Part shown: in pieces, positions 1-33,744 of the stretch | Layout: the number at the start of each line of letters is the position of its first letter | Numbering within the stretch: the first letter of the stretch is position 1 | Made by a program: the position numbers and the translations under genes | Notes under the pieces: generated by a model | Database searches by the model: none | What the model saw: the letters and a program-made list of their open reading frames with translations, nothing else | Told to the model about the DNA's origin: nothing | DNA from: an uncultured Fidelibacterota bacterium | Lineage (GTDB): Bacteria > Fidelibacterota > Marinisomatia > Marinisomatales > UBA1611 | Length of the DNA: 38,116 nucleotides | Direction: 5' to 3' | Assembly (NCBI GenBank): GCA_902611135.1 | Contig: CACLYL010000009.1 | Span: 1 to 38,116, forward strand

Positions 1-2151
1 GTTCCAAGTGAACAATTAGATATTGGTCTTCATAAAGTTGTAATTACCGCTAAATCTACATTTGGAATTGATATAGTTCCTTTAGAGTGGTCTTTCAGTG
101 CTACAAAAGGTATGAAAAATTTATCTGAATCTTTTATATATAGTGGATCTTTTAATAGTAAAGCTTCCAATAATAAAGTTTCAAATATCTCAAACAATGA
201 AGTTCAATACTCAGCTAAATTAAATACGGAATTAAGTTGGATTAAGGCGAGCTATTCTTCCAGACAAACTGATAGAGAATCAGGATTTTTACAGCCTTTA
301 AATAGATCAAACTTGACTTTAAGAATAACAGATTATTTTAACTATCAAATTGGAGATGTTTTTCCATCCATATCTCAATATAGTCTTGATGGAAAACGGA
401 TAAATGGGCAATATGTAAATGCCAAGTTTAAATTCTTAGAAATTCACTATACTTCAGGGGAGCAGGTTAGATCAGTCCAGTTTAAAGAGGGCCTAAATAA
501 AGCTTATGCAGTAAGCGATGATAATATTCAATATTTAGAAAATGGTAAACGCGTGCTCAAATTAGAAAGACGTGGATATACTTTTCCAAGAAATATCATT
601 GCTGCTAGGGCAAATGTATCATTATTCAATACGTTTAAAGGGGGCATACACTTTTATAAAGGTAAAGATGATTATAATGAGATAAATAGAACTTTTATTG
701 ATACTAAAGTGAATAATAAGAGTTATAATTGGTATGAAAGCATAATATCTTTAGATACGCTCTGGACTGGGGACTCAGTTAAGCAAACATTGACTATTAG
801 TGAACTTTTAGAAAAAACTTCTCTAGATTCATCAAGTAAACTGTTCGGAGATTCAATTTATATTAAAAAGAGAAATTGGGGGAATGGCGACCCAAAAGAG
901 AACCTCGTTCTAGGATTCGACTTTGAAACTGCTTTAGATAATAGGAGAATATTAATACAAGCAGGGTGGAATACAAGTTTTACAAATTCTAATATTTGGG
1001 CAGGCATAGCAAATAAAGATTCTTTGGATATATTGATGGATACTTTACAAGATGGAAAATTATTGGAAGAATATGATGTATCTGCACTTGGAGATTTCAT
1101 TGATGATATGGAGCCTGTTTTTACTGTTAACCCTCTTTTTATGTCACCTATATTACCCATTGATCCTATTGTTGCTCAGGAAAATATGTTAAAAGCTATT
1201 TTAAATATGCCTGCCTCAGCCTATTATGTTAGATTAAAAAGTAGTTATTCGTTTAATAATATTTTAGTCCAATATAGGCAGCACGGTCCTGAATATTTTA
1301 GTTTAGGTAATCCATATCTTGTAAATAATATTCGTGAGTTTACAATTAATAATAGATTTTCCGCTTTAGGCCGAAGACTCATGATTGTAGTAGGCTATGT
1401 TTACAAAGATAATAACTTAACTGAGATAACTGCAAACCCACTAGCAACTAAAACCCTATCGTTAAATACTACTTTAGTTCCAGGATCTGGCGCTCCCTCA
1501 TTTACCTTTAATATTAAAACTATTGGAAGACAAAACGGTATTGACACCTTGGAATATGATAAATATGACAATCCAATAGGCGATAAAAGAGAAGATTCAA
1601 GGGCATTTACTGTGATGGCATCAATAAATATTCCAGGGAATTTTAATTATTTTAATTCGACCACTTCTATTAATATTAATTCCTTAACCTATTCTGACAA
1701 TTTACAGTCTGAAAGACTAACCCTCGCTAACAAAAAGAATTACGATAACATTCCAAGATCTGATTTATTTATGTTAAAATCTGAAACTCAATCCTTATCT
1801 GGAAATTTTTCTGCTCGTTTTAATTTTCCATTAAAATTGACGATGAACTTAAATCAAACTAAAATAAAAATACCTTACTTAGATGATGAGCAAAAACTTA
1901 AAGCATCTGAAAATATTTGGAGTACATTAGGTGCTAATTTTCAATATTCTTTTCTTCAAAATAAACTTAGGTTAAATGGCGGAGCAGACTATATAACCAA
2001 TGGGCAGGTAAATAATATATATGGATTTAAATTTGGAACTGATTGGGAGGTGATAAATAAATTAACTTTAAGTTCATATATGGCTCTTCGATTAGCGAAT
2101 AAGGAAGTTAGTAATTCTGGCACAAATTTTTCTCTTAGGTACCGATTTTGA
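1..2151 (+). CDS. Outer-membrane beta-barrel protein with N-terminal Ig-like segment (5' partial)
   Basis: Frame is open from base 1 (VPSEQLDIGLHKVVITAKSTFGIDIVPLEWSFSATKG...), so the 112 start is internal. Start resembles the end of a cadherin/Ig-like domain; body is rich in alternating hydrophobic strands; ends ...FSLRYRF* with terminal Phe typical of OM barrels. Confidence 0.7.
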   Translation, partial: VPSEQLDIGLHKVVITAKSTFGIDIVPLEWSFSATKGMKNLSESFIYSGSFNSKASNNKVSNISNNEVQYSAKLNTELSWIKASYSSRQTDRESGFLQPLNRSNLTLRITDYFNYQIGDVFPSISQYSLDGKRINGQYVNAKFKFLEIHYTSGEQVRSVQFKEGLNKAYAVSDDNIQYLENGKRVLKLERRGYTFPRNIIAARANVSLFNTFKGGIHFYKGKDDYNEINRTFIDTKVNNKSYNWYESIISLDTLWTGDSVKQTLTISELLEKTSLDSSSKLFGDSIYIKKRNWGNGDPKENLVLGFDFETALDNRRILIQAGWNTSFTNSNIWAGIANKDSLDILMDTLQDGKLLEEYDVSALGDFIDDMEPVFTVNPLFMSPILPIDPIVAQENMLKAILNMPASAYYVRLKSSYSFNNILVQYRQHGPEYFSLGNPYLVNNIREFTINNRFSALGRRLMIVVGYVYKDNNLTEITANPLATKTLSLNTTLVPGSGAPSFTFNIKTIGRQNGIDTLEYDKYDNPIGDKREDSRAFTVMASINIPGNFNYFNSTTSININSLTYSDNLQSERLTLANKKNYDNIPRSDLFMLKSETQSLSGNFSARFNFPLKLTMNLNQTKIKIPYLDDEQKLKASENIWSTLGANFQYSFLQNKLRLNGGADYITNGQVNNIYGFKFGTDWEVINKLTLSSYMALRLANKEVSNSGTNFSLRYRF

Positions 2152-4700
2152 TAAATAAAATTAAAAAGTTTTTTAAAAATCATACAATTGATTTAACTCT
2201 TTTGGTAGGCTCAATTATGTTAACCTGCTTTCTTCATTGGATTGGGGTATTTGATTTTCTTGAGCTCAAGACATACGATTATAGATTTCATAAAGTTAGA
2301 GGTCCTTTAACTGGGTGGAGAGCAAGCGATTCGACTATTATAGAGAAAGGAACAGATGTGGTTTTAGTGGAGGTTGATGATGAATCATGGAGAATATTAA
2401 AAGATAAAAAGGTTCCTTGGCCATATCCTAGAGGAGATATATGGGCAAGAGTGGTTTCAAACTTGTCAAAAGCGGGTGCTAAAGTAATTGCATTTGATAT
2501 TCAGTTTGACTCACCTGATGCACGTTCTGAATATTTGAGATCCGTAAGTGATAATTTACCTTCAGAATTTCAACAATACTTGCCAGGTCATGGAGATATA
2601 TTATTAGCAGAATCAATAAAAAAGGCTCAAGATAATGGAACTAAAGTTGTTATGGATGTAAAGATGGTAAGAGAACCAACACGTATTCCTTCAACCTATA
2701 TTGCATATCCTGTCCAAGAAATCATGGATGTAAAACCAGAGACTGGCCTAATTAATGATATGTTAGATATAGATGGGTTTTCTCGCCAATATAGTTTTGC
2801 AGGTTACATGGAGCATGAAATAGAGAAAGCATATTTAACAATTGGGGTAAAATGCGTAAAAGCTTTTTATGGTATTCCTGATGAAAGCATACCAAAATAC
2901 GACATAGTGAAGAATAGTTATCGTTATGGACAATTAGTGGTACCAACATATGGTCGAACAAATAACTTTTTAGTCAATTATTATGGACCACCATCAGGTT
3001 ATAAGATACCTGGGAAAATTGATGTTAAACCTTGGGGGACATTTCCTAGGTTTTCATTATCACAAATCCTTGATACTCAGGATTATGATTTACCTGAAGA
3101 TATTGACTGGATGAGCACTTTCTTACCAGGAGAGGTACCAGATTGGATTTCAGCGATAGAAAATGAAACAGAAAGAAAAGAGATGATGGAAATGATGGGA
3201 ATTGGAACTGATTTTGATATAACACAATCACCATTTTATAATAAAATTGTAATTTTAGGAGTCTCTGTCGAAGTTCTTCATGATGTTAAATCGACTCCGT
3301 TCTATAATTATTTAGAGTTAAGTCAATTAACCCCCGGTATGGAAACTCATGCTAATGCAATACAAACCATGATTCATGGGAATTTCATCAAGGTTTTTTC
3401 TGGTAAAACAACTAGATACTTTGCTGAAAATTCTGGATATCCATTTAAAATGATTCTTTTAATAATGGGGTTGTGTCTTTTAGCATATGCTCTTTTGACA
3501 AGTTTTGATCTACATCCATTAAATGCAGGCGCTTTGATATTTGCTGAGGGTTTAATTTATTATGCTTATTCAATGGGAATTTTTACAAATGATTTGCTAT
3601 GGATTTTTAAATCTACTATTGTAAAAATCTTACCTAACTTTGTTTATGATAAGTATTATGATGTATTTAAAGTAAATTTACCAGATATAGGTGAATCCTA
3701 TATTATGCCGATAGTAGCCCCAGTCGCCGGATTGGTTTTGACTTTCAGCTCTAATATTATATTTAAATATCTAAATGAGCAGCAAGATAAAAAATTCTTA
3801 AGAGAAACATTTGGAACCTATATTGCACCTAAAGTTTTAGATAAGATGTATGAAGAGAAGCAAGCACCCACTTTGGGAGGTGTCCAAGGACATCATACTG
3901 CATTTTTCTCAGATATCCAGAACTTTTCTACATTTTCTGAGGTATTAGAACCAAATAAAATGGTTTCATTGATGAATGAATACTTAACAGTAATGTCTAA
4001 AGTTATTTTTGAAAATGAAGGAACCCTTGATAAATATATAGGTGATGCAATTGTTGCATTTTATGGAGCGCCAGCTCCTGTTGAAAATCATGAAATAAAA
4101 TCATGCTATACTGCTTTACAAATGCAAGATGCTTTGGAAAAACTGAGAGTAAAGTGGAAAAATGAAGGTGATTGGCCTGATGTTGTTTATTCAATGCAAC
4201 ATCGAATTGGGTTAAATTGCGGTAAAATGGTGACTGGGAATATGGGTTCAGAAATGAGGATGAACTATACTATGATGGGAGATACTGTAAACCTAGCTGC
4301 AAGATTAGAATCATCAGCAAAACAATATGGAGTTTATAATTTCGTAGGAGAAAATATCTACGAAAAAACAAAAAGGGAATTCGTTTTTAGATTTTTAGAT
4401 TTTGTTAAAGTAAAAGGTAAAAATATTCCTGTTAAAGTTTACGAATTGGTTAACTCGAGGAATAATATTAATAATAAAACATTGAAGCTAGTTCATCTTT
4501 TTGAGAGGGGTTTAGATAAGTATTATAAAAAAAAGTGGGAAGATGCTTTGACTCTTTTTCAAAAATCCGAAGAAATGGAAGAAAAATTTACTTCAAGAAA
4601 TACCAATCCCTCCTTAATCTATATTGAAAGATGTAAGATATTTATTGAGGATCCCCCTGGTAAAAATTGGGATGGTGTTTGGACAATGACATCTAAATAA
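2148..4700 (+). CDS. CHASE2 domain-containing adenylate/guanylate cyclase, TPR-like C-terminus
   Basis: N-terminal TM, CHASE2-like region (DVVLVEVDDESW...WPYPRGDIWARVV..L..AGAKVIAFDIQFD), three TM helices, class III cyclase domain (FFSDIQNFSTFSE, GTLDKYIGDAIVAFYGAP, MMGDTVNLAARLE). TTG start overlaps the previous stop (TTGA). Confidence 0.92.
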   Translation: MINKIKKFFKNHTIDLTLLVGSIMLTCFLHWIGVFDFLELKTYDYRFHKVRGPLTGWRASDSTIIEKGTDVVLVEVDDESWRILKDKKVPWPYPRGDIWARVVSNLSKAGAKVIAFDIQFDSPDARSEYLRSVSDNLPSEFQQYLPGHGDILLAESIKKAQDNGTKVVMDVKMVREPTRIPSTYIAYPVQEIMDVKPETGLINDMLDIDGFSRQYSFAGYMEHEIEKAYLTIGVKCVKAFYGIPDESIPKYDIVKNSYRYGQLVVPTYGRTNNFLVNYYGPPSGYKIPGKIDVKPWGTFPRFSLSQILDTQDYDLPEDIDWMSTFLPGEVPDWISAIENETERKEMMEMMGIGTDFDITQSPFYNKIVILGVSVEVLHDVKSTPFYNYLELSQLTPGMETHANAIQTMIHGNFIKVFSGKTTRYFAENSGYPFKMILLIMGLCLLAYALLTSFDLHPLNAGALIFAEGLIYYAYSMGIFTNDLLWIFKSTIVKILPNFVYDKYYDVFKVNLPDIGESYIMPIVAPVAGLVLTFSSNIIFKYLNEQQDKKFLRETFGTYIAPKVLDKMYEEKQAPTLGGVQGHHTAFFSDIQNFSTFSEVLEPNKMVSLMNEYLTVMSKVIFENEGTLDKYIGDAIVAFYGAPAPVENHEIKSCYTALQMQDALEKLRVKWKNEGDWPDVVYSMQHRIGLNCGKMVTGNMGSEMRMNYTMMGDTVNLAARLESSAKQYGVYNFVGENIYEKTKREFVFRFLDFVKVKGKNIPVKVYELVNSRNNINNKTLKLVHLFERGLDKYYKKKWEDALTLFQKSEEMEEKFTSRNTNPSLIYIERCKIFIEDPPGKNWDGVWTMTSK

Positions 4701-4724
4701 TAAAATCTAAGAATTAGAGGAAGA

Positions 4725-6284
4725 ATGGAAAATATACGTGGAGAAATCCTTTGGATAGATGATGAGATTCAACATTTAAAGCCACACATTATGTACCTTG
4801 AAAGTAAAGGTTACAATATTGATTCTACCAATAATGGTAATGATGGAGTTATTCTAGCAAAAAAAAATAAATATGATATTGTTTTATTGGATCAAAACAT
4901 GCCTGGGATGGATGGATTATCGACATTAAAAGAATTGAAAATCAATAACTCTCTTGTAACAATTATTATGATAACGAAAACAGAGGATGAATGGTTAATG
5001 GATGAGGCAATAGTTGAAAAGGTTGAGCAGTTTTTAATCAAGCCTGTAAATCCAAGTCAAATTTTTATGGCATGTAAACAAGCATTAGAAAGAGCATTAA
5101 TTCGGTCTGAAAAATTAATGAAAGATTATTTAAATGAAATTAGAAAAATAGATGATGATTTAAATTTAGATCTTGATATAGATAAATGGTGGAAACTATA
5201 CGATCGTTTGGTTGATTGGCAAATTAAATTTGATGAGCATAAAGATATGGGCATTAATCATATTTTAAATGATCAAAGTAAAAACTGTAACAAAGAATTT
5301 TCATTTTTTATTGAAAAAAATTATTGTGAATGGCTCAAATCTAAAAAAAGACCTGTATTATCAAATGATATTTTTAAGAACCATGTAATACCCCACATGA
5401 ACGATAACAAAAAGGTTTGTATGATAGTAATTGACTGTTTGAGGTATGATCACTTTAAAGTCATGAGGGAATTTTTAGAACCTTACTTTGATATGAACAT
5501 AAATTATGCATTGTCATTAATCCCAACTGCAACGGTATATTCGAGGAATGCTATATTTAGTGGACTTTTTCCTGACGAATTAATTGAAAAATATCCTGAG
5601 CAAATGCTTGATATGAGAAGAAATAGCTCAAGCCTTAATAAACATGAAGAACTTTTTTTAAACGATCAACTTAGAAGAGAAGGTTTTCCATATAAAAAAA
5701 CCCATTATCATAAAATATGGGATGTCGAGGAGGGTAATAGATTTTTAAAGAAGTTTCATGAACATTATAATAAAGATGTTATTTCATTGGTGGTAAACTT
5801 TGTTGATTTATTAGCTCATAATAGTTCACAGACTAATGTTTTAAAAGAAATCATGTATGATGATGCTGGATTTAGGAGCGCTGTTAAAATTTGGTTTGAA
5901 AATTCATGGCTGTTAAAGATTCTAAAAAAATTAAGTGAAGAAAATTATAATGTTGTAATCACTAGCGATCATGGAAGTATAAGAGTAGGAAGTAGTACAA
6001 TGGTTTCTGCAGATAAAGGAGCATCGACAGGCGTTAGATATAAATATGGTCGTAATTTAAATACTAATAGAAAAAATGCTTTAGTGATTAAAAATCCAGA
6101 GGATTATAGATTGCCTAATTTTGGGCCACAGCCTACCTATATTATTGCTAAAGAAAATTACTATTTTGTTTATCCTAACGAAGCAAAAAAATATCAAGCC
6201 AAATTTCGTAATTCTTATCAGCATGGTGGAATTAGTTTAGAGGAGATCTTCATTCCGGTAATAAACTTGAGTGGGAAAAGATAA
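4725..6284 (+). CDS. porX: PorX-type response regulator with PglZ (alkaline phosphatase superfamily) domain
   Basis: Receiver motifs ILWIDDE, VLLDQNMPGMDG, MITK, FLIKPVNP; PglZ-type metal motifs IVIDCLRYD, PTATVYSRNAIFSG, NFVDLLAHN, TSDHGSIRV, YQHGGISLEEIFIP. AGAGGA upstream of ATG. Confidence 0.9.
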   Translation: MENIRGEILWIDDEIQHLKPHIMYLESKGYNIDSTNNGNDGVILAKKNKYDIVLLDQNMPGMDGLSTLKELKINNSLVTIIMITKTEDEWLMDEAIVEKVEQFLIKPVNPSQIFMACKQALERALIRSEKLMKDYLNEIRKIDDDLNLDLDIDKWWKLYDRLVDWQIKFDEHKDMGINHILNDQSKNCNKEFSFFIEKNYCEWLKSKKRPVLSNDIFKNHVIPHMNDNKKVCMIVIDCLRYDHFKVMREFLEPYFDMNINYALSLIPTATVYSRNAIFSGLFPDELIEKYPEQMLDMRRNSSSLNKHEELFLNDQLRREGFPYKKTHYHKIWDVEEGNRFLKKFHEHYNKDVISLVVNFVDLLAHNSSQTNVLKEIMYDDAGFRSAVKIWFENSWLLKILKKLSEENYNVVITSDHGSIRVGSSTMVSADKGASTGVRYKYGRNLNTNRKNALVIKNPEDYRLPNFGPQPTYIIAKENYYFVYPNEAKKYQAKFRNSYQHGGISLEEIFIPVINLSGKR

Positions 6285-6715
6285 TGAATTTCATCTCAAA
6301 ATCGGAAAGAGATACTTTTCGTTTTGCTTCAAACCTAGCTCAAAGTATTAAAGTTGGATCTGTTGTAGCACTTTTAGGAAATTTAGGAAGCGGTAAGACG
6401 ACTTTTGCAAAGGGTTTCGCAATGGGTTTAAATATTACCGAGCATGTTGGTTCTCCAACTTTTAAGATAATTTCAGAATATGTAGGTAATCCTCATAACC
6501 TTTATCATATTGATAGTTATAGATTAGAAGACGAAAACGACTTTTTGAAAATTGGAGGAGAGGAGTTTTTGAACCAAAAAAGAGGAGTAACTCTTATAGA
6601 ATGGGCAAGCTTAATTAAAGGTATTTTACCAAAAGATACAATTTTTATATACTTTAAAAGACTATCAGAAAAAAGTACTAGGCAAATTCGAATTGAGGGC
6701 TTAGAAGATGAATAG
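6284..6715 (+). CDS. tsaE: tRNA threonylcarbamoyladenosine biosynthesis ATPase TsaE
   Basis: Walker A GNLGSGKTTFAKG; VGSPTFKIISEY; YHIDSYRL; LIEWASL. Starts in TAATG overlap with porX. Confidence 0.95.
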   Translation: MNFISKSERDTFRFASNLAQSIKVGSVVALLGNLGSGKTTFAKGFAMGLNITEHVGSPTFKIISEYVGNPHNLYHIDSYRLEDENDFLKIGGEEFLNQKRGVTLIEWASLIKGILPKDTIFIYFKRLSEKSTRQIRIEGLEDE

Positions 6716-7337
6716 GCTAATTTTATCAATTGAAACAAGTTCAAAAATTTGTAGTGTTGGACTTCTAATGAATGGAAAAAACCTTGGTTCTATTGAAAAA
6801 CTAGATAGTAGAAAGCATGCAGAGCTACTACCAGAGTTCGTAGAAAAGTTATTTGAAAACAATAAGGTTCAAGTTAAGTTGATTGATGCTATAGCTGTTA
6901 GTATAGGACCTGGTTCATTTACTGGACTTCGCGTGGGTTTAAGTTTCGCGAAGGGTATTGCATACGCCATTAAATGCCCTATTATTCCAGTACCTACTAT
7001 TTTATCCATAGCTTATAGTTTGAAAAAACACAAACCGACCAGTGGAATTATGAGATCACATGGTGAGAAAATTTTTTTTCAAGAGTTCAGATGGGAATCT
7101 GATAAACCGATTGTTAAATCTAGACCAACTTTTGGAGAATTAAATGACTTTAAAAATAAACTAGATAATTGTTTCCATTATAACTGCAGCGATATCATAA
7201 AAGCAGGCAATATCCAAGAAGCCTATCCATCTTCTATTTCTGTTGCTAAATTATCAATGTTATACTTTAAAGAATGGATAAAAGAGAATCCCTCTGATTT
7301 AACTTCAGATTATATTTATCCATATAAAACTAATTAA
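6708..7337 (+). CDS. tsaB: tRNA threonylcarbamoyladenosine biosynthesis protein TsaB
   Basis: ILSIETSSKICSVGL, HAELLP, IDAIAVSIGPGSFTGLRVGLSFAKGIAYA. Confidence 0.95.
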   Translation: MNRLILSIETSSKICSVGLLMNGKNLGSIEKLDSRKHAELLPEFVEKLFENNKVQVKLIDAIAVSIGPGSFTGLRVGLSFAKGIAYAIKCPIIPVPTILSIAYSLKKHKPTSGIMRSHGEKIFFQEFRWESDKPIVKSRPTFGELNDFKNKLDNCFHYNCSDIIKAGNIQEAYPSSISVAKLSMLYFKEWIKENPSDLTSDYIYPYKTN

Positions 7338-7356: not shown

Positions 7357-8193
7357 ATGGCATGGTTTAGAAGAAAAGATAAAAAAATAAATAGCCCTGA
7401 AAAGAAGGAAATCCCTGATGGGCTATGGGAAAAATGCCCTTCATGTGGGGCTCTATTATATCGTCCGCAAGTTGATAAAAATCTTTCTGTCTGCCATCAT
7501 TGTAACTACCATTTTAGAGTTGATTCAGAGTTGTATTTAAAGCTGTTAATGGATGATAGCTCTTATGATGAATTATTTAATAAGATTGAATCAAAAGATT
7601 TTTTAGAATTTTCTGCTAAAAAGAAATATTCTGATCAAATCATAGATGCAAAAAATAAAACTGGAGACAAAAATGCTATAAAAGTATTTAGAGGTAAGAT
7701 GAGTGGGCATGATATTGTTTTAGGTATAATGAATTTTAAATTTATTGCTGGAAGTATGGGTTCAGTAGTCGGTGAGATTATTTCAAGATCTATAGATGTA
7801 GCTGGAGAAAAAAACATCCCATTGATTTTAGTATGTGCTTCGGGAGGCGCAAGAATGCAAGAAGGTGCAATTTCCTTGATGCAACTTGCAAAAATAAGTA
7901 CAAAACTTGCTCGATTTTCAAAATCAGGTGGTTTATATATTCCTATATTAACAGATCCAACTACAGGCGGTGTAACTGCTAGCTATGGTATGTTAGGTGA
8001 TATTATCATCGCAGAACCTGGAGCTTTGATTGGCTTTGCTGGCTCAAGAGTAATTAAACAAACTATAGGCCAAGATTTGCCTAAAGGTTTTCAAAGATCA
8101 GAGTTTTTATTAAAAAAGGGATTTATTGATAAAGTTATCCATCGGAAAGATATGAAGTCCAATCTAACAAATATCATAAGCACTCTTCAATGA
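7357..8193 (+). CDS. accD: Acetyl-CoA carboxylase carboxyltransferase subunit beta
   Basis: Zinc ribbon CPSCGALLYRPQVDKNLSVCHHCNYHF; carboxyltransferase motifs CASGGARMQEGAISLMQLAK, PTTGGVTASYGMLGDIIIAEPGALIGFAGSRVI. Confidence 0.97.
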   Translation: MAWFRRKDKKINSPEKKEIPDGLWEKCPSCGALLYRPQVDKNLSVCHHCNYHFRVDSELYLKLLMDDSSYDELFNKIESKDFLEFSAKKKYSDQIIDAKNKTGDKNAIKVFRGKMSGHDIVLGIMNFKFIAGSMGSVVGEIISRSIDVAGEKNIPLILVCASGGARMQEGAISLMQLAKISTKLARFSKSGGLYIPILTDPTTGGVTASYGMLGDIIIAEPGALIGFAGSRVIKQTIGQDLPKGFQRSEFLLKKGFIDKVIHRKDMKSNLTNIISTLQ

Positions 8194-8951
8194 ATAAACC
8201 TCGGATTTTAATCACCAATGATGATGGTATCCTTTCAAAAGGAATCTTTACTTTATGGAAAGCTTTAGAGGAATTTTCTGATGTAACAATTATTGCACCA
8301 AAAAATGACCAAAGTGGGAAAAGCCATTCTATTTCTTTGGATAAACCACTAAGAATTAAATACATATCTCTTAATGATGGTTTTGAAGGATACGCCTTGA
8401 ATGGTACTCCAGTTGATTGTGTAAAAATTGGTTTAAATAAAATTTTGAAAGAAAAACCTGATTTAATTGTTTCAGGTATCAACAAAGGAGCTAATGTAGG
8501 AAAAAATATACTATATTCAGGTACCGTAGCGGCAGCTATGGAAGGGATATTAAATGATATACCATCAATAGCATTTAGCATTAATTCATCTAATCCGAGC
8601 AACTTTAAAACTGCTAGGATAATAAGCAGGGACATAGTTCAACAATCTCTAAAAGGTAATCTATCAAATGATATCATTATAAACGTGAACATACCTAATT
8701 GTAAAATTGATCAAATAAAAGAGACAATTATCACTAAACAAGGTCATCAATATTTTGTTGATAGTTTTAAAGAAAAATTTGATTCAAAAAATAATAATTA
8801 TTTTTGGATGGAAGGTGAAATAAAAGATTTAGACAAAGATATTAAATATGATGGATATGCAGTTGCGAGTAATTATGTCAGCATTACTCCATTAAAAACA
8901 GATATAACTGCTCGCTCCCATATTAGTTTATTAAAAAATTTTTTTAATTGA
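8190..8951 (+). CDS. surE: 5'/3'-nucleotidase SurE
   Basis: ILITNDDGILSKGI, APKNDQSGKSHSIS, LNGTPVDCVKIG, SGINKGANVGKNILYSGTVAAAMEG. ATGA overlap with accD. Confidence 0.96.
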   Translation: MNKPRILITNDDGILSKGIFTLWKALEEFSDVTIIAPKNDQSGKSHSISLDKPLRIKYISLNDGFEGYALNGTPVDCVKIGLNKILKEKPDLIVSGINKGANVGKNILYSGTVAAAMEGILNDIPSIAFSINSSNPSNFKTARIISRDIVQQSLKGNLSNDIIINVNIPNCKIDQIKETIITKQGHQYFVDSFKEKFDSKNNNYFWMEGEIKDLDKDIKYDGYAVASNYVSITPLKTDITARSHISLLKNFFN

Positions 8952-10501
8952 TGGATGAATTAAAAATCAACGGTGTACTGATCCTTGATTTTGGATCACA
9001 ATATACTCAACTCATTGCTAGAAGAGTTAGAGAAGAAAATGTCTACTCAGAAGTTGTTAGTCCTAATATCAAATTATCTAAAGTGTTGGATAGGAAGCCT
9101 GCATGTATAATTCTTTCTGGTGGACCTTCAAGCGTCTATGAAAAAGGGGCTGCTAAGTTTGATTTGAAAATCTTGGAATTGAAAATTCCAATTCTTGGTA
9201 TTTGCTATGGTTTACATTTATTAGTTCAAGGCTATGGAGGTAAAGTAAAAAGTTCAGATATAGGTGAATATGGCTTAGCAACAATAAAAGTAACTAAAAA
9301 TTCTATTTTATTTGATAAAATACCAAAAGTTTCTAAAGTATGGATGAGCCATGGGGATTTAGTTTCAAAACTTCCAAGTAACTGGGATACATTAGCAAAA
9401 TCATCCAACGGTATTATTGCTGCTATATCAAATCGAGATGAAACATTTGTTGCTACACAATTTCATCCAGAGGTTGTTCATACAATTGAGGGCGCTAAAA
9501 TTATTAGGAACTTTATATTTAAAATAGCTAAGTGTAAAAGGAATTGGACAGCGAATAATTTTATAGAATCACAAACTAAATTAATTCAAAAGTTAGTTCC
9601 AAAAGGTAATGTTTTAGTAGGCGTTAGTGGGGGGGTAGATTCCTCTGTAGTTGCTGCACTTTTAAATAAAGCTATTGGTAATAGGGCAATTTCAGTATTG
9701 ATTGATCATGGACTATTAAGGAAAAATGAGGCTGAAATTTGCGTTTCTTCATTGCAAACAGGTCTGAATATAAATATACACCTGTTCGATCAATCTAGGA
9801 TATTTTTAAAAAAACTTGATAATATAGTTGATCCCGAATTGAAGCGCAAAATTATAGGTAATCAATTTATTTATTCATTTGAAAAAATAGCTAAAGATTT
9901 TAAAGATACAAAGTTTTTAGCTCAGGGTACGCTCTACCCTGATGTTATTGAAAGCGGATTAAATGAGGGTAAGAATTCTAATGTAATAAAAAGTCATCAT
10001 AATGTTGGCGGATTACCAGAAAAAATGAATTTCAGATTGATAGAACCTTTAAGAGAATTATTTAAAGATGAAGTCCGGAAGGTTGGTTTAGAATTAGGAA
10101 TTTCAAAAAAATTAATATTTAGGCATCCATTCCCAGGACCAGGTCTTGCTATCAGGATCATTGGTAAAATAACTAAAAAAAGAGTAAAAGTGCTTCAGAA
10201 AGCGGATAAAATATTCATTGATATTTTACATGAGGATAATTTGTATGAAAAAATATGGCAAGCATTTGCAATTTTAATACCTGTCAAGACTGTTGGAGTC
10301 ATGGGTGATAAAAGGACTTATGAAAATATAATTGCAATAAGATCGGTGACAAGCACTGATGGTATGACAGCAGATTGGTATCCGATGCCGCATAGAACAT
10401 TAAATAAAATCTCTAATAAAATTTTAAATTCTGTAAAAGGTGTGAATAGAGTAGTATATGATATTACATCTAAGCCTCCTGGGACGATAGAGTGGGAATA
10501 A
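8951..10501 (+). CDS. guaA: GMP synthase (glutamine-hydrolysing)
   Basis: ILDFGSQYTQLIARRVRE, GICYGLHLL, ATQFHPEV, GVSGGVDSSVVAALL, RHPFPGPGLAIRIIG, C-terminal KPPGTIEWE. ATG at 8951 (TGATG overlap) preferred over the TTG at 8948. Confidence 0.98.
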   Translation: MDELKINGVLILDFGSQYTQLIARRVREENVYSEVVSPNIKLSKVLDRKPACIILSGGPSSVYEKGAAKFDLKILELKIPILGICYGLHLLVQGYGGKVKSSDIGEYGLATIKVTKNSILFDKIPKVSKVWMSHGDLVSKLPSNWDTLAKSSNGIIAAISNRDETFVATQFHPEVVHTIEGAKIIRNFIFKIAKCKRNWTANNFIESQTKLIQKLVPKGNVLVGVSGGVDSSVVAALLNKAIGNRAISVLIDHGLLRKNEAEICVSSLQTGLNINIHLFDQSRIFLKKLDNIVDPELKRKIIGNQFIYSFEKIAKDFKDTKFLAQGTLYPDVIESGLNEGKNSNVIKSHHNVGGLPEKMNFRLIEPLRELFKDEVRKVGLELGISKKLIFRHPFPGPGLAIRIIGKITKKRVKVLQKADKIFIDILHEDNLYEKIWQAFAILIPVKTVGVMGDKRTYENIIAIRSVTSTDGMTADWYPMPHRTLNKISNKILNSVKGVNRVVYDITSKPPGTIEWE

Positions 10502-10541: not shown

Positions 10542-10958
10542 ATGAATTTTTTACTTGTCAATAGTTCGACAAAAAGGATATTGATTCTTTCTTTTACTTT
10601 TTGTTTTTTGGATGCTCAAAATCAAAAATATACTATCAATAGTTTGGTGCAAAAAAAAGGAAGTTTCTATAATAAAATGAGTAATAAGCCAATTACTGGA
10701 AAGTTATTTTTTGAATTTATGGATAATAAAAATATTATCTTATTGCCTGTAGGCAAATTGGTAGGAGGGAAAAAACATGGATTATGGACGAGGTACTGGA
10801 GCAATGGATTGAAGAAAAGTCAGGGATTTTACTTTGATTCACTAAAAGAGGAATTTTGGTATGTGTGGTCACATGATGGCTTAAAGTATTTAGAAATAAA
10901 ATATAAAGATAATCAACTAATCCACTTTACAAATTGTATCGTAGATAGCTGTGATTAA
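10542..10958 (+). CDS. Secreted MORN-like repeat protein, paralogue 1
   Basis: Signal-peptide-like N-terminus; repeats such as KHGLWTRYWSNGLKKSQGFYFDS and EFWYVWSHDGLKYLEIKYKDNQL; ends CIVDSCD*. Confidence 0.7.
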   Translation: MNFLLVNSSTKRILILSFTFCFLDAQNQKYTINSLVQKKGSFYNKMSNKPITGKLFFEFMDNKNIILLPVGKLVGGKKHGLWTRYWSNGLKKSQGFYFDSLKEEFWYVWSHDGLKYLEIKYKDNQLIHFTNCIVDSCD

Positions 10959-11600
10959 ATGTTATTAAAATTTTTTAGTTTATATCTTCTTCTTTCTTTT
11001 CTATTTTCTAATGAGAGGTATATGATTAATGAAGTAGCTAATAAAAGTGGTATTTATTATAGTAAGGCAGATGAAGATTTACTTATCACAGGAGACATAT
11101 ATTCTTATTTTGATGGCAGAGAAGTATATAATGGATTCATATCCGATGGTTATAAGGTTGGAAAATGGATAGACTATTATACTACTGGTAATAGAAGAGG
11201 CGAATTTATGTATAAAAATGGATTAATGAACGGTCCTTATACACTCTGGTATAAAAATGAAGTCAAAGGAGAGTATGGGTTCCATAAAAATAATAAAAAA
11301 GATAAATTAATAATTAAATGGGACCAAAAAGGTCAAAAACTTAGCTCAGTTACGTTTAAAGAGGATCTTTTTCATGGAGAAGTAATCTTTTTTAACTCTG
11401 ATGGAAGTGTCAAATATTCTGGTATTTACAAAGAAGGTCGTTGTGTTCACGGTACAAAAAAAAATTATAGACATAAAAATAATTTTCCAAATCCAGTTTA
11501 TGAAATTTTTAAAGACGGAAAATTAGTGAAATTAGTATGGTTAGATAATGAAGACAAAATACTAGAAACAGTAGACTGTATAAAGACAAACTGCAATTAG
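10959..11600 (+). CDS. Secreted MORN-like repeat protein, paralogue 2
   Basis: Signal-peptide-like N-terminus; repeats YKVGKWIDYYTTGNRRGEFMYKNGLMNGPYTLWYKN..., ending DCIKTNCN*. Starts directly after the stop of paralogue 1. Confidence 0.75.
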   Translation: MLLKFFSLYLLLSFLFSNERYMINEVANKSGIYYSKADEDLLITGDIYSYFDGREVYNGFISDGYKVGKWIDYYTTGNRRGEFMYKNGLMNGPYTLWYKNEVKGEYGFHKNNKKDKLIIKWDQKGQKLSSVTFKEDLFHGEVIFFNSDGSVKYSGIYKEGRCVHGTKKNYRHKNNFPNPVYEIFKDGKLVKLVWLDNEDKILETVDCIKTNCN

Positions 11601-19906: not shown

Positions 19907-20876
19907 ACAAGTTTTTGAAAATTTAAGAAATAATGTTCATGTAAATTCTTATTATTTAAAGGGAGATGATCAATTTTTACAAGAATTTTTTCCTAAATAT
20001 GTGATTGATTATACGTTCGGTAAACAACCCATAGGAAAAGTCTTTATTATCTCGGAAGAAGTTGATAAGAAAAACCAGCTCAATGAAATTTTAACAAGTG
20101 ACCTTTTTAGTTCGAAAAAGGTATTTATACTCAAAAACTTTCAAAGATTAAAGTCTAAACAGCAAGATGAAATTTTAGAATATGTGAGAAAGCCTCTTGA
20201 AAATCATCTTCTCTTTATAATTAATGATGACTTTTTCAAAAAGACCAATAACTTAAATAAACTTGAAAAGCTGATAGGGTATGTAGACGTTCAAACGCCA
20301 TTAAATTATGAAATAAAAAAATGGGTCAAATACTTTTTTAAAAAAAATGGTGTAAAGGTTGAAAATAAAGTTGTTGATACTTTAGTTGATTTAGTTGGTG
20401 ATTCTCTTAGTAATTTAAAAAATGAAGTTGATAAAATTTGTTTATTTAAAGGAAATGAAAAAAAAGTATTTTTTCATGAAATGGACTGCTTCTCATTTTT
20501 AGTTTCCAATAGACAAAGAAAAGAACTATTATTTTCTATTGCTGAGAGAAATTTCGACAAATCAATTTTATCAATGAGAGTTATCCTTGCTCAGGGTGAT
20601 TCTATGTTATCTCTCCTTTATCCTATTACAACCCTTCTACAAGAATTATTATTTGCAAAGATGAATAATGGAACATATCCAAATTATAAGGGTTATATAA
20701 ATTTACCATTATCACTTAAAAATAGAATTTTATCTTTTAAAGAATCTTACACTACAGATGAAATTGAAAAAGGTTTAATTGAACTAGGTAAAATTGATCG
20801 CAGACAAAAAACTGGAAGTAGCAATGATGAAATCGATTTATTACAATTCCTTGGAGCATTCGTTGGAACAAAATAA
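19893..20876 (+). CDS. holA: DNA polymerase III delta subunit
   Basis: YYLKGDDQFLQEFF..., KKVFILKNFQRLK, LKNEVDKICLF, C-terminal IDRRQKTGSSNDEIDLLQFLGAFVG typical of HolA. Confidence 0.85.
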   Translation: MMKIKQVFENLRNNVHVNSYYLKGDDQFLQEFFPKYVIDYTFGKQPIGKVFIISEEVDKKNQLNEILTSDLFSSKKVFILKNFQRLKSKQQDEILEYVRKPLENHLLFIINDDFFKKTNNLNKLEKLIGYVDVQTPLNYEIKKWVKYFFKKNGVKVENKVVDTLVDLVGDSLSNLKNEVDKICLFKGNEKKVFFHEMDCFSFLVSNRQRKELLFSIAERNFDKSILSMRVILAQGDSMLSLLYPITTLLQELLFAKMNNGTYPNYKGYINLPLSLKNRILSFKESYTTDEIEKGLIELGKIDRRQKTGSSNDEIDLLQFLGAFVGTK

Positions 20877-21444
20877 AAAAACTTATGTTTTTTCAGATGA
20901 ACATTTAATGAAAAGATTTCAAGATGGAGATGAGAATGCGTATGAAACTCTTGTCTCTAGATACAAGGATAAATTACATAATTTCATATATTTTTTTGTA
21001 GGCGACAAAGATTTGGCTGAAGATTTAGTTCAGGATACAATGGTAAGACTGTTTACAAAAAAGCATTATTATAAAGAAGTTGCTAAATTTTCTACATGGA
21101 TTTATACAATAGCGCGAAACTTATCTAATAGTGAACTTCGAAAGAGGAAAAATAGAAAAACCTTTACTATTAGTGAATTAAGTAAAGATAAATCAAATTA
21201 TGATTTAAAAGACGAAAAACCGGGTATAGAGCGAAGATTAGAATTGAAATATGATATAGAGCAAATTAAAATTACGATTAATAAATTATCCAGGACGTTT
21301 AGGACTGTTATAATTCTAAGGGACATAGAAGATTTATCATATGTTGATATAAGTAAAATTGAAGGTGTCCCAGTAGGGACAATAAAATCTAGAATAAATA
21401 GAGCACGATTACAACTGCGAAGAGAATTAAAAGATTTATTTTAA
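20851..21444 (+). CDS. ECF-type RNA polymerase sigma factor
   Basis: Region 2 (DENAYETLVSRYKDKLHNFIYFFVGDKDLAEDLVQDTMVRLF...FSTWIYTIARNLSNSELRKRK) and region 4 (FRTVIILRDIEDLSYVDISKIEGVPVGTIKSRINRARLQLRREL). Start uncertain (TTG 20851 or 20863, or ATG 20908); overlaps the end of holA. Confidence 0.93.
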   Translation: MEHSLEQNKKTYVFSDEHLMKRFQDGDENAYETLVSRYKDKLHNFIYFFVGDKDLAEDLVQDTMVRLFTKKHYYKEVAKFSTWIYTIARNLSNSELRKRKNRKTFTISELSKDKSNYDLKDEKPGIERRLELKYDIEQIKITINKLSRTFRTVIILRDIEDLSYVDISKIEGVPVGTIKSRINRARLQLRRELKDLF

Positions 21445-21462: not shown

Positions 21463-21984
21463 ATGAACCAATACCAATTTGAAGATTTAATCTCTGATTA
21501 TGTTGAGAACAAACTAACAATTTCTAAAAGAAAAGATGTAGAGAAGTACTTAATAGAAAATCCAAAGGATGTATTAAAAGTAAACCAAGTAAGAGAAAAT
21601 ATTTTATTCTTGAAATCTCTTCCAAAAACAAAGGTAAGTTCAGACTTTGATAGTAAGTTAAAAGATAGAATTAAAAAAGAGTCTTTAAGACCATTAAAAA
21701 AGAAAATTATTACGAAAAAGAATATATTTGGTTTTAAACCAATCAACTTTTCTTTTTTTATCTCTTTAATATTCTTCTCTGTGTTCTTGAGTTATCAATT
21801 TATAGATGAACTATTTTTGCTGGGAGACCTCTCAAAGGGAGTTTTTACAAATAATGAAATCGAAGTTAAGAAAACACCTAAAATGTTAAATCAAAGAAAA
21901 ATTACAGTACCCAGCGATTCTACTGAGATTGATCAGAAAAATAATAAAAACTTTTCTAAAAATATTAAATTAGTGAATGATTAA
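21463..21984 (+). CDS. Probable anti-sigma factor, single TM, no zinc motif
   Basis: Directly downstream of the ECF sigma; FEDLISDYVENKLTISKRKDVEKYLIENP anti-sigma-like N-terminus, one TM (FSFFISLIFFSVFLSYQFI). AGAGGAG upstream. Confidence 0.65.
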   Translation: MNQYQFEDLISDYVENKLTISKRKDVEKYLIENPKDVLKVNQVRENILFLKSLPKTKVSSDFDSKLKDRIKKESLRPLKKKIITKKNIFGFKPINFSFFISLIFFSVFLSYQFIDELFLLGDLSKGVFTNNEIEVKKTPKMLNQRKITVPSDSTEIDQKNNKNFSKNIKLVND

Positions 21985-22051: not shown

Positions 22052-23800
22052 ATGTCAACTTTAGCTAATTTTACAAAAACTCTAATAATTTCTTTCGTTC
22101 TGACACTTGTATATCTTTTTTTACCTTCGGATTTAGTTGTTCTAGGACAAATTTTAAAATATAGTATATTAATATCGATAATCATAGCTCTAATGTCATA
22201 TAAAAGTGTAATCCAAAGCGTTGAGTCGGGCATTTCTAATATAAATTCGCCAAAAAGGAAAAAAGATGGAAAATACGAATTTGAAGTTGTTTTAGATGAA
22301 AAAAAAACAACGAAAGATCTTTTTCAAAGGTTAATTATTCTGACCATTAAGGTGGCTAGTTCAATCAATAAGCATAGCCATTCAGCAATATACACCATTG
22401 ATCCAAAAATAAATTCATTTGTCTTGCAGGGAGGAAAAAAAGATGAGTTCAAGGAGTCAATATCTATCGAAAACGGGGAATTATTAAATTTTGTTTTAAA
22501 ATCAAGAAAAATTCACCAGAAAGATAATAAAGACTTATGGAACAGTTTATTTTCTGAAAATTCTTGGAAAGGAAGCGAAAGTGCAATTATTAATCCTGTA
22601 AAAATACATGGAAAAGACTTAGGCTTTATATTATGTAGAATTGATCATTTTAAAAATATTTCAGATAAGGATTTGAGTTCATTTAAAAATCTGAGTGAGT
22701 TTTTTTCGTACAATTTACAAAATTTAGATGATTTAGATTATCACATAAATCAAGAAGCTAGTAAAGATTTAATTTTAGATATCATCTCTGGATTAAATTC
22801 TAAAACGGACGAGCAAAATATTTTTGATCAATTCAGATACTTTTTTAGGACTACATTTAATTACGATAGATTAACAATATCAATTCGTAAAGAAACCAAT
22901 AATCGGAGAAAAATTGATAAAGCAATTAATTCAATTGTTAAATTGACTGATGGAATCAAAGATGAACTAGATCAAGAAACTGAATTTCCAACAAATGGAA
23001 CTCTCCATGGTCTGCCTATAATTTCAGGTAAGTCTATCTCTTCTAGCAATTGGCAAGAATCTTTCCCCAATATAGTGAGATATAGTTCAAAACAAAAAAG
23101 TAATGCAGTATATAAAACTATCTTAGGTTCTCCCATATTAGTTGGTAATCAGGCCAAAGGATCTATAGTTCTTGAAAGACTAGATGAAGTTATGTACGCA
23201 AAAAAAGAGGTAAAGAATTTGGAAAAAGTTGGCCGAATATTGGGTTCTTCCTTAGAGTGGGTAAATGAATATAATAAAATTTATGAAAATGCTACCCATG
23301 ATGGGCTCTCAGGTTTGTTGAACCATCAGACATTTAAAGAGCGTTTTAATGACGAGATTAAAAGAGCTGAAAGATTTCAGCATAAAATGAGTATAATGAT
23401 ATTTGATTTAGATAAATTTAAAAATATTAATGATACACTTGGTCACCAATACGGAGATTACATTATACAAACATGTTCAAAAATCATGAAAGATAATGTA
23501 AGAGCTGTAGATGTCGTAGCAAGATATGGAGGTGAAGAATTTGCAATTATCTTAATAAACACCAGCGTAATAATGTCAAATATTGTAGCTCAAAGGATTG
23601 TTGATACCATCGCAAATTATCCATTCAAGATGGACAATATTAAAGCCAAGATGACAATTTCAGGTGGTATGTCAGAATATCCATCCGACTCAAAAGATAT
23701 GAAAGAGTTGATTGAAATTGCTGATCAAGCTATGTATTCAAGTAAGCAAGAGGGAGGCAATAAATTTTCAATACACTCAAATATAGAAAAAAGTGGTTAA
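22052..23800 (+). CDS. GGDEF domain protein (diguanylate cyclase) with N-terminal TMs and GAF-like regions
   Basis: HDGLSGLLNHQTFKERFNDEIKRAERF, MIFDLDKFKNINDTLGHQYGD, RAVDVVARYGGEEFAIIL, ADQAMYSSKQEGGNKF. Confidence 0.93.
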   Translation: MSTLANFTKTLIISFVLTLVYLFLPSDLVVLGQILKYSILISIIIALMSYKSVIQSVESGISNINSPKRKKDGKYEFEVVLDEKKTTKDLFQRLIILTIKVASSINKHSHSAIYTIDPKINSFVLQGGKKDEFKESISIENGELLNFVLKSRKIHQKDNKDLWNSLFSENSWKGSESAIINPVKIHGKDLGFILCRIDHFKNISDKDLSSFKNLSEFFSYNLQNLDDLDYHINQEASKDLILDIISGLNSKTDEQNIFDQFRYFFRTTFNYDRLTISIRKETNNRRKIDKAINSIVKLTDGIKDELDQETEFPTNGTLHGLPIISGKSISSSNWQESFPNIVRYSSKQKSNAVYKTILGSPILVGNQAKGSIVLERLDEVMYAKKEVKNLEKVGRILGSSLEWVNEYNKIYENATHDGLSGLLNHQTFKERFNDEIKRAERFQHKMSIMIFDLDKFKNINDTLGHQYGDYIIQTCSKIMKDNVRAVDVVARYGGEEFAIILINTSVIMSNIVAQRIVDTIANYPFKMDNIKAKMTISGGMSEYPSDSKDMKELIEIADQAMYSSKQEGGNKFSIHSNIEKSG

Positions 23801-30271: not shown

Positions 30272-32570
30272 ACATTTAATAATTATAGTGATTATGCCTT
30301 TATTATTTCTTTATAAAATGGTCTTTTTAGGAGAAATAATTACCACAAATGATGAGTATGAAAGACATCCTATTAATGAATGGCGAGATAATTATTTCAT
30401 AGAGAATGATGATATCCCTCAATGGTTTCCAAATATATTTTCAGGGATGCCTTCGTATGGGGGATATATTTTTAATAATGGAGATCCTACAAAATTTATA
30501 AGGAGTATAATTTTGTTTAACCCAGGACTGAAGGTCTGGTTCTATCTATGTATATCAGCGTTGGGGATGTTTTTGTTATTGAGGATGACTGGGACATCTA
30601 AAAATTCCTCCTTGTTCGGGGCTTTAGTTTCATCATTGACCCCATATTCATTTGGTTTAATTAATGCAGGACATTTGAATAAAATTTTCGCAATGGCTTA
30701 TATACCCTGGGTTCTATTGGCAGGCTTTAGCTTAATAGGGAAATTAAAAACTAAGTATATCTTTTTTCTTGCGTTAGCAAATTCTTTACAACTTTGGGTT
30801 AATCATCCTCAAATTTCATATTACACGTGGATGGTCCTTGGTTTTTATTTTTTTTGGAAAACAGGGCTTGATCTTAAAAACAAAAATTTTAATTTTAAAG
30901 ATAGTGGTTTGAAACTATTATACATTAAAGGGAGTATTTTAATTTCACTGCTATTGGTAAGTGATCCATATTTAGATATATACAAATTTCAGGGTGAATC
31001 AACTAGAGGAGCAAAATCTGTCTTAGATCAAACAAATCAAACGAGCAGGGGAGCAAGTTGGGCTTATGCTACACAATGGTCTTTTCATCCAAAGGAAATG
31101 ATATCTTTTATTTATCCATATTACTTTGGTCTACAGAACACTCAAGACCTAAAAAAAGGAGCTTATTGGGGATATATGACGTTTACCCAATCTACACATT
31201 ATTTGGGTATAATTGCTATTTTATTGGCCATTTTAGGTCCACTGTTGAAAAAACCTGATAAATTTGAAATATTTTTTTTGGTAGTAACCATATTAACAAT
31301 TTTTACTGGTTTTGGTTCTCATTTTCCCGTTTTATACAGACCTTTCTATGAACTTTTTCCTTTCTTTTCAAAATTTAGAATTCCATCAATGATTTATGTT
31401 CTACTGTCTGTTTCAGTACCAATTTTAGCATCCAAGAGCATAGATTCTTTAATTAAGTATATTGATGACAAATTAATATTTAAGAAATTATTTTATGTTT
31501 CTACCTCTGTTTTAGTTTTAACTATCTTTCTTCTGTTTGCAGGTGAATCATTGCTAAGTTTTATGAAGTCTTCCGAAAGTTTAAGGTATAGTCAAGATCA
31601 AATTTCATATTTAAAAAATGCCAGAGTTAATCTTTTTAATAAAGGTCTAATTTTATGCATTATTGTGGTAAGTAGCTTTGTTTCACTGTGTTGGTTATTT
31701 AAAAATAAACAAATTAAAAGAAGCTATTTTTATTACCTTATAATTGCTCTGAGCTTAGCTGATATTTGGTATGTTAGTTCTGAGTTCATGAATTTAAAGC
31801 CAAAAAAAAATATGGATAAACTTTTTAAATCAGATTCAGTAATAAGAAAAATCCAAGAGGATATGGACTATTTCAGAGTCTTTCCTGCAGATGAGATTAG
31901 GTCAAATAAATATAGCTATTGGAATATAGAAAGTATTGGCGGTTACAGACCGATCAAATTAAGAAATTATGAAGATTTAATGAACGCTAAAGGTTTTAGC
32001 AGACCGCATGTTTTAAATATGTTAAATGTAAAATATGTAATCACTGGAAAAAAAATAAATAATACAGACTTTGAAAAAGTTGAAGGTATTAGCAACCTTT
32101 ATGAAAATAAGAAAGTTCTTCCAAAAGCATGGTTTGTTGGTAAGATAAAGAATGTTAATTCTCAAAGAGCATCTTTGAAGGAAACACTATTATCGAGTTT
32201 TGATCCATCAGATGAGGCTGTAGTCTTAAATTATGAAGGTCCCCAACTTCCAAATAAAGTTGATGGGAGTGTTGAGGTTAAATTGAGAAAAGAAAATCAA
32301 ATAATATTAAAAACTAATTCCCCTACCGGAGGACTAATGGTTCTATCAGAGACCTATTATAAGCCAGGTTGGAAAGCTACCATTAATGGTAGTCACTCAA
32401 AAGTTTACCAAACTAATCATATATTGCGTTCTGTATATGTTCCTGAAGGGAAAAATGAGATCATATTTTGGTATGATACCTCTTTGTTCAATAAATCTCG
32501 CACTTTGTCTAGAATATCCCTTTTGATTGTTTTATTTTCAATGGGTATGCTTTTTAGAAAAAAAGATTAG
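30252..32570 (+). CDS. YfhO family multi-TM membrane protein
   Basis: About a dozen hydrophobic segments; DWFPNIFSGMP-like QWFPNIFSGMPSYGG, C-terminal SETYYKPGWKATINGSHSKVYQTNHILRSVYVPEGKNEIIFWY. Confidence 0.88.
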   Translation: MKLMKNKHLIIIVIMPLLFLYKMVFLGEIITTNDEYERHPINEWRDNYFIENDDIPQWFPNIFSGMPSYGGYIFNNGDPTKFIRSIILFNPGLKVWFYLCISALGMFLLLRMTGTSKNSSLFGALVSSLTPYSFGLINAGHLNKIFAMAYIPWVLLAGFSLIGKLKTKYIFFLALANSLQLWVNHPQISYYTWMVLGFYFFWKTGLDLKNKNFNFKDSGLKLLYIKGSILISLLLVSDPYLDIYKFQGESTRGAKSVLDQTNQTSRGASWAYATQWSFHPKEMISFIYPYYFGLQNTQDLKKGAYWGYMTFTQSTHYLGIIAILLAILGPLLKKPDKFEIFFLVVTILTIFTGFGSHFPVLYRPFYELFPFFSKFRIPSMIYVLLSVSVPILASKSIDSLIKYIDDKLIFKKLFYVSTSVLVLTIFLLFAGESLLSFMKSSESLRYSQDQISYLKNARVNLFNKGLILCIIVVSSFVSLCWLFKNKQIKRSYFYYLIIALSLADIWYVSSEFMNLKPKKNMDKLFKSDSVIRKIQEDMDYFRVFPADEIRSNKYSYWNIESIGGYRPIKLRNYEDLMNAKGFSRPHVLNMLNVKYVITGKKINNTDFEKVEGISNLYENKKVLPKAWFVGKIKNVNSQRASLKETLLSSFDPSDEAVVLNYEGPQLPNKVDGSVEVKLRKENQIILKTNSPTGGLMVLSETYYKPGWKATINGSHSKVYQTNHILRSVYVPEGKNEIIFWYDTSLFNKSRTLSRISLLIVLFSMGMLFRKKD

Positions 32571-32574
32571 CAAC

Positions 32575-33744
32575 ATGCGCAGATATAAGTATGTTATCAA
32601 TATTAAAGCAAGCCTATTTATTTTTGGAATAATATTAATTATACTATTTTTATATTATACTCGATTATTAATAAATGAATTAAGAGATGACAATAAAGAA
32701 ATTGTTCGGCTATATGCTGGAATGATTGCAGATGTTGTAAAAGACGATAGTGATGCAAATCTAGATTTTGTTTTTGAAAATATTATTAAGAAAGTCAAAT
32801 TTCCTATTATTCAAACAGATAATGATAAAAAAATTCAAATGTGGAAAAATCTGCCGCATTTTGCATCAGATATAGATAAAAGTGAACAAAGATTGAAGTT
32901 TATGCAAATTATGGATAGAGTGAATGAACCCATACCTCTTATCTATAGAGATAAAATTTTAGGCGATATTACATTTGGATTTTTACATTATGGTGATAGT
33001 TTATTTGTTCAAAAGTTACAAAATTGGACGTATATAGTGGTCATCGTGATTATTCTATTTATATTTGTTGGACTTTTAGGTTTTTCCTTTATTAGAAATA
33101 ATGAGAAAAATAGTATATGGATTGGGATGGCTCGAGAAACGGCCCATCAATTAGGAACTCCGCTCTCTGCATTAATTGGATGGAAAGAGTGGCTAATGGA
33201 ACATCCGGAAAAGATTAAAAAAATTCTACCGGAAATGGAAAGTGACTTGGATAGGTTAAACCAAATTGGAAGACGTTTTAGCAACATGGGTTCAACTCCT
33301 GAATTTGAGATGCTAAACTTTTCTCATAGGATGATATCGGTTATAGAATATCTGGAAAAAAGGTTGCCAACATTAGGTAAAAAGGTCAAACTGAAAAATA
33401 ATATAGATCCAGATATAAATATAAAAGCAAATGGTTCACTCTTAGCATGGTCTATAGAAAACATTATAAGAAATAGTATTGATGCAATTAACCAAGAAAA
33501 TGGTGAAGTTAAAGTTAGCTTAAAGAAGGATCAAAAAATTATTATACGTGTCGAGGACAATGGATGTGGCATTCCTAGAAAAGATTGGCGAAATATTTTC
33601 AGGCCTGGTTTTAGTACAAAAAAAGCTGGATGGGGCCTTGGTTTATCCCTTTCCAAAAGAATAATTCAAGATATTCATGGAGGAAAGCTTCATGTATTAA
33701 AATCAAATATAAATGAAGGAACTGTCATTCAGATCATACTTTAA
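32575..33744 (+). CDS. Membrane sensor histidine kinase
   Basis: Two TMs flanking about 120 aa; H-box GMARETAHQLGTPLSALIGWKEWL; N-box SIENIIRNSIDAIN; VEDNGCGIP; FRPGFSTKKAGWGLGLSLSKRI. ATG 32575 preferred over 32527. Confidence 0.93.
   Translation: MRRYKYVINIKASLFIFGIILIILFLYYTRLLINELRDDNKEIVRLYAGMIADVVKDDSDANLDFVFENIIKKVKFPIIQTDNDKKIQMWKNLPHFASDIDKSEQRLKFMQIMDRVNEPIPLIYRDKILGDITFGFLHYGDSLFVQKLQNWTYIVVIVIILFIFVGLLGFSFIRNNEKNSIWIGMARETAHQLGTPLSALIGWKEWLMEHPEKIKKILPEMESDLDRLNQIGRRFSNMGSTPEFEMLNFSHRMISVIEYLEKRLPTLGKKVKLKNNIDPDINIKANGSLLAWSIENIIRNSIDAINQENGEVKVSLKKDQKIIIRVEDNGCGIPRKDWRNIFRPGFSTKKAGWGLGLSLSKRIIQDIHGGKLHVLKSNINEGTVIQIIL

Follow-up and report, generated by a model that had tools for sequence, protein, structure and literature searches.

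NsrA of Sinorhizobium meliloti is an outer-membrane-associated receptor with a predicted barrel, which is required for signalling via the inner-membrane CHASE2 cyclases CyaK and CyaD1/D2, with cAMP as the output (PMC7529298, PMC13001267). In P. gingivalis, the genes of the PorXY-SigP cascade are found at the distant locus numbers PGN_2001, PGN_1019, and PGN_0274 (PMC4800418). PorX from this species hydrolyses cyclic and linear oligoadenylates (PMC11320123), and its crystal structure was solved with pGpG bound (PMC10951265), while F. johnsoniae PorX is active on bis-pNPP. For the reference PorX, the nucleophile and the residues that form both zinc sites have been described (PMC10951265). In one study, the zinc-driven conformation of PorX outweighed catalysis in the function of the type IX secretion system (T9SS) (PMC11320123). 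The locus described here bears on the route by which envelope information reaches T9SS control.

We analyzed a stretch of 38,116 nucleotides (the window), which is contig 9 of a 1.36 Mb Ca. Marinimicrobia genome estimated to be 58% complete. The locus resembles the NsrA/CyaK-CyaD systems in that the gene for a predicted outer-membrane barrel is tied to that for a predicted CHASE2 adenylate cyclase. Unlike in the NsrA systems, the barrel, a FecR-domain protein, and a third protein, upA, are encoded with one cyclase, beside porX. As in PorXY-SigP, there is a PorX equivalog whose active site is intact, accompanied by a candidate kinase and a candidate ECF sigma factor, and the phylum has SprA. 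However, the candidate kinase and sigma factor genes are located within 28 kb of porX rather than at distant loci, and the cAMP unit stands at the head. An outer-membrane barrel plus a periplasmic FecR domain is also reminiscent of FecA-FecR-FecI, but the FecR protein here looks periplasmic and does not resemble an anti-sigma factor of the membrane. The output encoded beside it is a cyclase, and no TonB-receptor domain was matched in the barrel. Our literature search found no paper with both PorX and CHASE2. Co-mentions of PorX and adenylate cyclase come from T9SS papers, at least one of which employs a cyclase in two-hybrid assays. For Ca. Marinimicrobia, the same search yielded no paper describing PorX or the control of the T9SS.

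Gene content of the window

The genes from the barrel to guaA, and those for the sigma factor, the probable anti-sigma factor, the diguanylate cyclase, and the kinase further along, are all on the + strand. ORF calling places the predicted outer-membrane beta-barrel, which has an N-terminal Ig-like region, at 1..2151, where the contig end truncates it on the 5' side. The CHASE2-class III cyclase, a predicted adenylate cyclase, follows at 2148..4700, and porX, encoding a response regulator with a PglZ phosphodiesterase domain, at 4725..6284. An earlier sequence-only reading had noted a 4-nt overlap between the first two genes and a short gap before porX. The ORFs confirm this: the overlap is TTGA at 2148-2151, and the 24-nt gap (4701-4724) contains a GAGG ribosome-binding motif. 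In a promoter scan, sigma-70-like sites were about as frequent as in shuffled sequence, so the scan speaks neither for nor against porX having its own promoter. An Rfam scan across the window gave no match. Downstream are tsaE and tsaB (t6A tRNA modification; 6284..7337), which are conserved neighbours of porX, and the housekeeping genes accD, surE, and guaA (7357..10501). Positions 10542-11600 encode, side by side, two small proteins that look secreted, contain similar motifs in repeated form, and lack a Pfam match.

The same reading had identified the first three products as an outer-membrane barrel, a CHASE2-class III cyclase, and a PorX-type protein, and the sequence evidence supports each identification. 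The cyclase product matched the Pfam families CHASE2 (1.9e-31) and Guanylate_cyc (1.6e-22). The full class III catalytic set is present (D589, D633, K629, T708, N715, and R719), and all six residues are invariant among 12 diverse orthologues. In class III cyclases, the two aspartates serve metal binding, the lysine and threonine specify adenine, and the asparagine and arginine act in the transition state. Since K629 and T708 are adenine-specifying residues, the enzyme is expected to make cAMP. A long insertion of repeats like 'D.NGNG.WD..EPF.D' is present in the CHASE2 loop of the cyclase at L060:4157-7510 (minus strand) and of its relatives in f16. These repeats resemble calcium-binding repeats, and none were seen in the window cyclase.

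The barrel product (1-2151) had no Pfam domain match, and its identity is supported by features shared with its orthologues. Full-length orthologues start with a signal-peptide-like segment and are 836-962 aa long, a length by which the window barrel is missing about 200 N-terminal residues. A C-terminal Phe was present in 15/15 aligned barrels. Amphipathic beta windows exceeded the shuffle mean in the same 15/15, while a non-barrel control was at the shuffle level; the window barrel has 37 such windows versus 25.6 +/- 3.8 in shuffles. With one sequence as input, AlphaFold gave no usable model of the window barrel (pLDDT 26.6), and the sole match of the barrel profile against the PDB was a weak one between the N-terminal region and part of peptidylarginine deiminase.

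The PorX product matched Response_reg (1.6e-21) and PglZ (6.6e-19) in Pfam and scored 601 bits against the NCBIfam equivalog model T9SS_RR_PorX (NF052313), the cut-off of which is 300. Alignment to 8ted located the phospho-acceptor D56, the nucleophile T270, and the metal ligands D237, D361, H365, D415, H416, and H500. Judged by its sequence, the window PorX is a true member of the family with a complete set of catalytic and phospho-acceptor residues, and phosphodiesterase activity and T9SS control are its putative functions.

A four-gene unit and its adjacency to porX

In relatives, the complete barrel is preceded by a FecR-domain protein (~225 aa; Pfam FecR) and by upA, a secreted-looking protein of ~390 aa with no family matches. 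The order upA, FecR-domain protein, outer-membrane barrel, CHASE2 class III cyclase was unbroken in nearly every neighbourhood read, including those distant from porX. The barrel and the CHASE2 cyclase form one unit: the genes are conserved together, overlap or nearly so, and move together through Ca. Marinimicrobia. The coupling of the two genes proposed from the window extends to the phylum, and the barrel tied to the cyclase has the terminal Phe and predicted amphipathic strands expected of an outer-membrane protein. By comparison with these relatives, the window barrel corresponds to the unit's third gene in truncated form, and the fecR-like gene and upA, which are missing from the window, would sit beyond the contig end. 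A motif scan of named genomes led to Ca. Marinimicrobia AG-457-F09, in which the gene order is the same (L133), with a PorX 58% and a partial cyclase 73% identical to those of the window. In a longer stretch of AG-457-F09 (L310), the barrel, cyclase, porX, and tsaE genes follow one another, and its cyclase is 76% identical to the window cyclase across the full length. Identities of this size are like those between genomes of one family, and on this basis the window is assigned to Ca. Marinimicrobia.

To assess how widely the adjacency is conserved, we used 149 genomes distributed evenly across the phylum, many of them incomplete, and assigned orthology by similarity and synteny. A cyclase was called directly upstream if it was <400 nt from porX on the same strand. 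PorX was found in 130/149 genomes. The cyclase was directly upstream of porX in at least 75 genomes from 13 families, and within 8.4 kb, not directly upstream, in at least 7 more. In at least 18 genomes it was elsewhere or on another contig, in some cases owing to contig ends. No orthologous cyclase was among the matches listed for at most 26 genomes, which is an upper bound. Recurrence in at least 75 genomes of 13 families indicates that the adjacency is not due to chance. It is not confined to close relatives and holds phylum-wide, as the sequence-only reading would require. The unit was located apart from porX in part of f23, in G096, G049, and f11, and in part of f8. In f28, f13, and the remainder of f23, PorX is kept and the four-gene unit was not found.

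Por_Secre_tail, a T9SS sorting domain, occurs in some of the very large proteins of f8 and f12 (L086, L097) whose genes precede porX directly or separate it from the unit. The large L086 and L097 proteins also bear lectin-like domains, and the L097 gene sits between the unit and porX. In G033, a 195-aa gene between the cyclase and porX (L051:7268-7855) looks like a Y1-type transposase.

SprA, the T9SS translocon, was detected in 147/149 genomes, whereas the 58% complete genome to which the window belongs gave only a weak match. In the reduced clade f15, PorX, the kinase, the unit, and cNMP-binding proteins are all missing while SprA is kept, which indicates that SprA and PorX are separable in Ca. 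Marinimicrobia. The f15 genomes are generally reduced (G038, G065, G073, and others are 0.8-1.0 Mb), so this joint loss is weak evidence of a functional tie.

Outside the phylum, no cyclase was found upstream of porX in ~65 named loci, mostly from Bacteroidota and with short upstream stretches. PorX was present in 57/61 Ignavibacteria-class and 57/60 Latescibacterota-group genomes, and at 30 loci from each, no cyclase was located in the ~1.5 kb before porX. Latescibacterota-group loci (L277-L305) usually have, directly in front of porX, a gene for a histidine kinase whose H-box is GMAKETAHQLGTPLSSL. The gene tsaE is commonly next after porX in Bacteroidota, Ignavibacteria-class, and Latescibacterota-group loci.

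A kinase, a sigma factor, and a diguanylate cyclase in the porX block

We compared nine genomes from eight families and found a syntenic block with the order porX-tsaE-tsaB-accD-surE-guaA-...-bacA-holA-ECF sigma-GGDEF-TPR-glycosyltransferase-...-kinase, although individual genes, surE among them, are absent from it in some of the genomes. The block comprises ~30 genes, including housekeeping genes, mostly on the same strand, and largely covers positions 6284-38116 of the window. The ECF sigma factor gene (20794..21444, true start probably ~20827), a candidate SigP-like output, was syntenic in 9/9 compared genomes, with products 49-54% identical. It is followed by a gene for a small single-TM protein (21463..21984), which has no family match and, from reading of its sequence, is a probable anti-sigma factor. 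Next is a diguanylate cyclase with an intact GGEEF motif and RxxD inhibitory site (22052..23800), which is syntenic phylum-wide.

A PorY-like sensor histidine kinase with the H-box ARETAHQLGTPLSAL is encoded at 32527..33744 (true start probably ~32575). It belongs to the same family as the kinase adjoining porX in the Latescibacterota group, and this family was found in 121/149 Marinimicrobia genomes, nearly always as a single copy. The families listed included no PorY- or SigP-specific model, and both the kinase and the sigma factor are candidates by synteny. Together with porX, they make up a candidate PorY-PorX-sigma set within one cluster. We considered whether the cyclase replaces the kinase of PorX and rejected this because a PorY-like kinase is syntenic with porX. 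The window kinase is probably PorX's own, which would make the cyclase an additional input at the porX locus. The barrel, cyclase, and porX had been presented as a module; its genes are real, but upA, the FecR-domain protein, the kinase, the ECF sigma factor, and the diguanylate cyclase had been overlooked.

Readings of the gene order

From the window alone, it had been proposed that these genes could form an envelope-to-nucleotide circuit in which the PglZ domain of PorX hydrolyses the cyclase product, with maker and cleaver in one transcription unit. The envelope-to-nucleotide half agrees with the barrel-cyclase unit and the NsrA precedent. The cleaving half does not fare as well, and we consider it the least probable of the readings discussed here. 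The active-site residues of PorX are wholly conserved, its homologues are metal-dependent phosphodiesterases, and the P. gingivalis protein cleaves cyclic and linear oligoadenylates. However, K629 and T708 predict cAMP, whereas the known PorX substrates are oligonucleotides, and cAMP hydrolysis by PorX was not found in the PorX literature searched. In addition, porX occurs without a nearby unit in f28 and f23 and without an adjoining cyclase in other phyla. The nucleotide partner could instead be the diguanylate cyclase (22052-23800), with PorX cleaving or sensing c-di-GMP or pGpG. The intact GGEEF and RxxD motifs, the phylum-wide synteny within the porX block, and the pGpG in the P. gingivalis PorX crystal are consistent with this. 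Against it, the gene is ~16 kb from porX amid unrelated genes, and binding in a crystal is not equivalent to a cellular role, which leaves this reading unlikely as well.

A stronger competitor is that the gene order is simply inherited. In that case, the unit and porX would head a slowly rearranging block while being functionally unrelated, as porX is to tsaE, accD, and guaA. The block from porX to the kinase is syntenic in eight families with its housekeeping genes included, porX-tsaE is kept even between phyla, and the cyclase-porX junction is broken in several lineages with the unit staying intact. However, the adjacency lasts in 13 families despite the evident mobility of the unit, the genes found between the unit and porX, or replacing the unit there, sometimes encode T9SS cargo, and PorX and the unit are both missing in f15. 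Inherited order is a serious minority explanation, and we favour over it, as somewhat more probable than its negation, that an NsrA/CyaD-like envelope-to-cAMP sensor is co-located with a PorXY-sigma cascade, so that two inputs converge at one locus. The arrangement is real and ancient, and any action of cAMP and PorX on each other is hypothetical.

If two inputs do converge here, a four-gene trans-envelope cAMP sensor would head a phylum-wide regulatory cluster built around porX. The upA protein is predicted to be secreted, the FecR protein periplasmic, the barrel outer-membrane, and the CHASE2 adenylate cyclase inner-membrane. The barrel, aided by the FecR and upA proteins, may convey the status of the outer membrane or its cargo to the CHASE2 domain in the periplasm, to which the cyclase would respond by making cAMP. 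PorX would be phosphorylated by the PorY-like kinase (32527-33744) and work with the T9SS motor and sigma-factor control. The cAMP and PorX branches are encoded at one locus and are probably co-transcribed in the window, and we propose on this ground that cAMP envelope sensing and PorX-controlled secretion are set together. The branches would meet on surface biogenesis and not as a maker and cleaver pair. Whether the unit's cAMP signal, sensing outer-membrane or secretion state, also feeds PorX-controlled secretion as a second-messenger input to the T9SS is a more specific suggestion, which we make tentatively and rate as rather doubtful. If true, a cAMP input to T9SS control would be hard-wired at one locus across a largely uncultured phylum. 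Concrete candidate partners for such control lie in one conserved block: the predicted sensor that links the envelope to cAMP, PorX with its probable cognate kinase, the ECF sigma factor, and the diguanylate cyclase. The readers of the cAMP signal would be CRP/cNMP-binding proteins encoded elsewhere, and cNMP-binding proteins were found in 136/149 genomes of the phylum.
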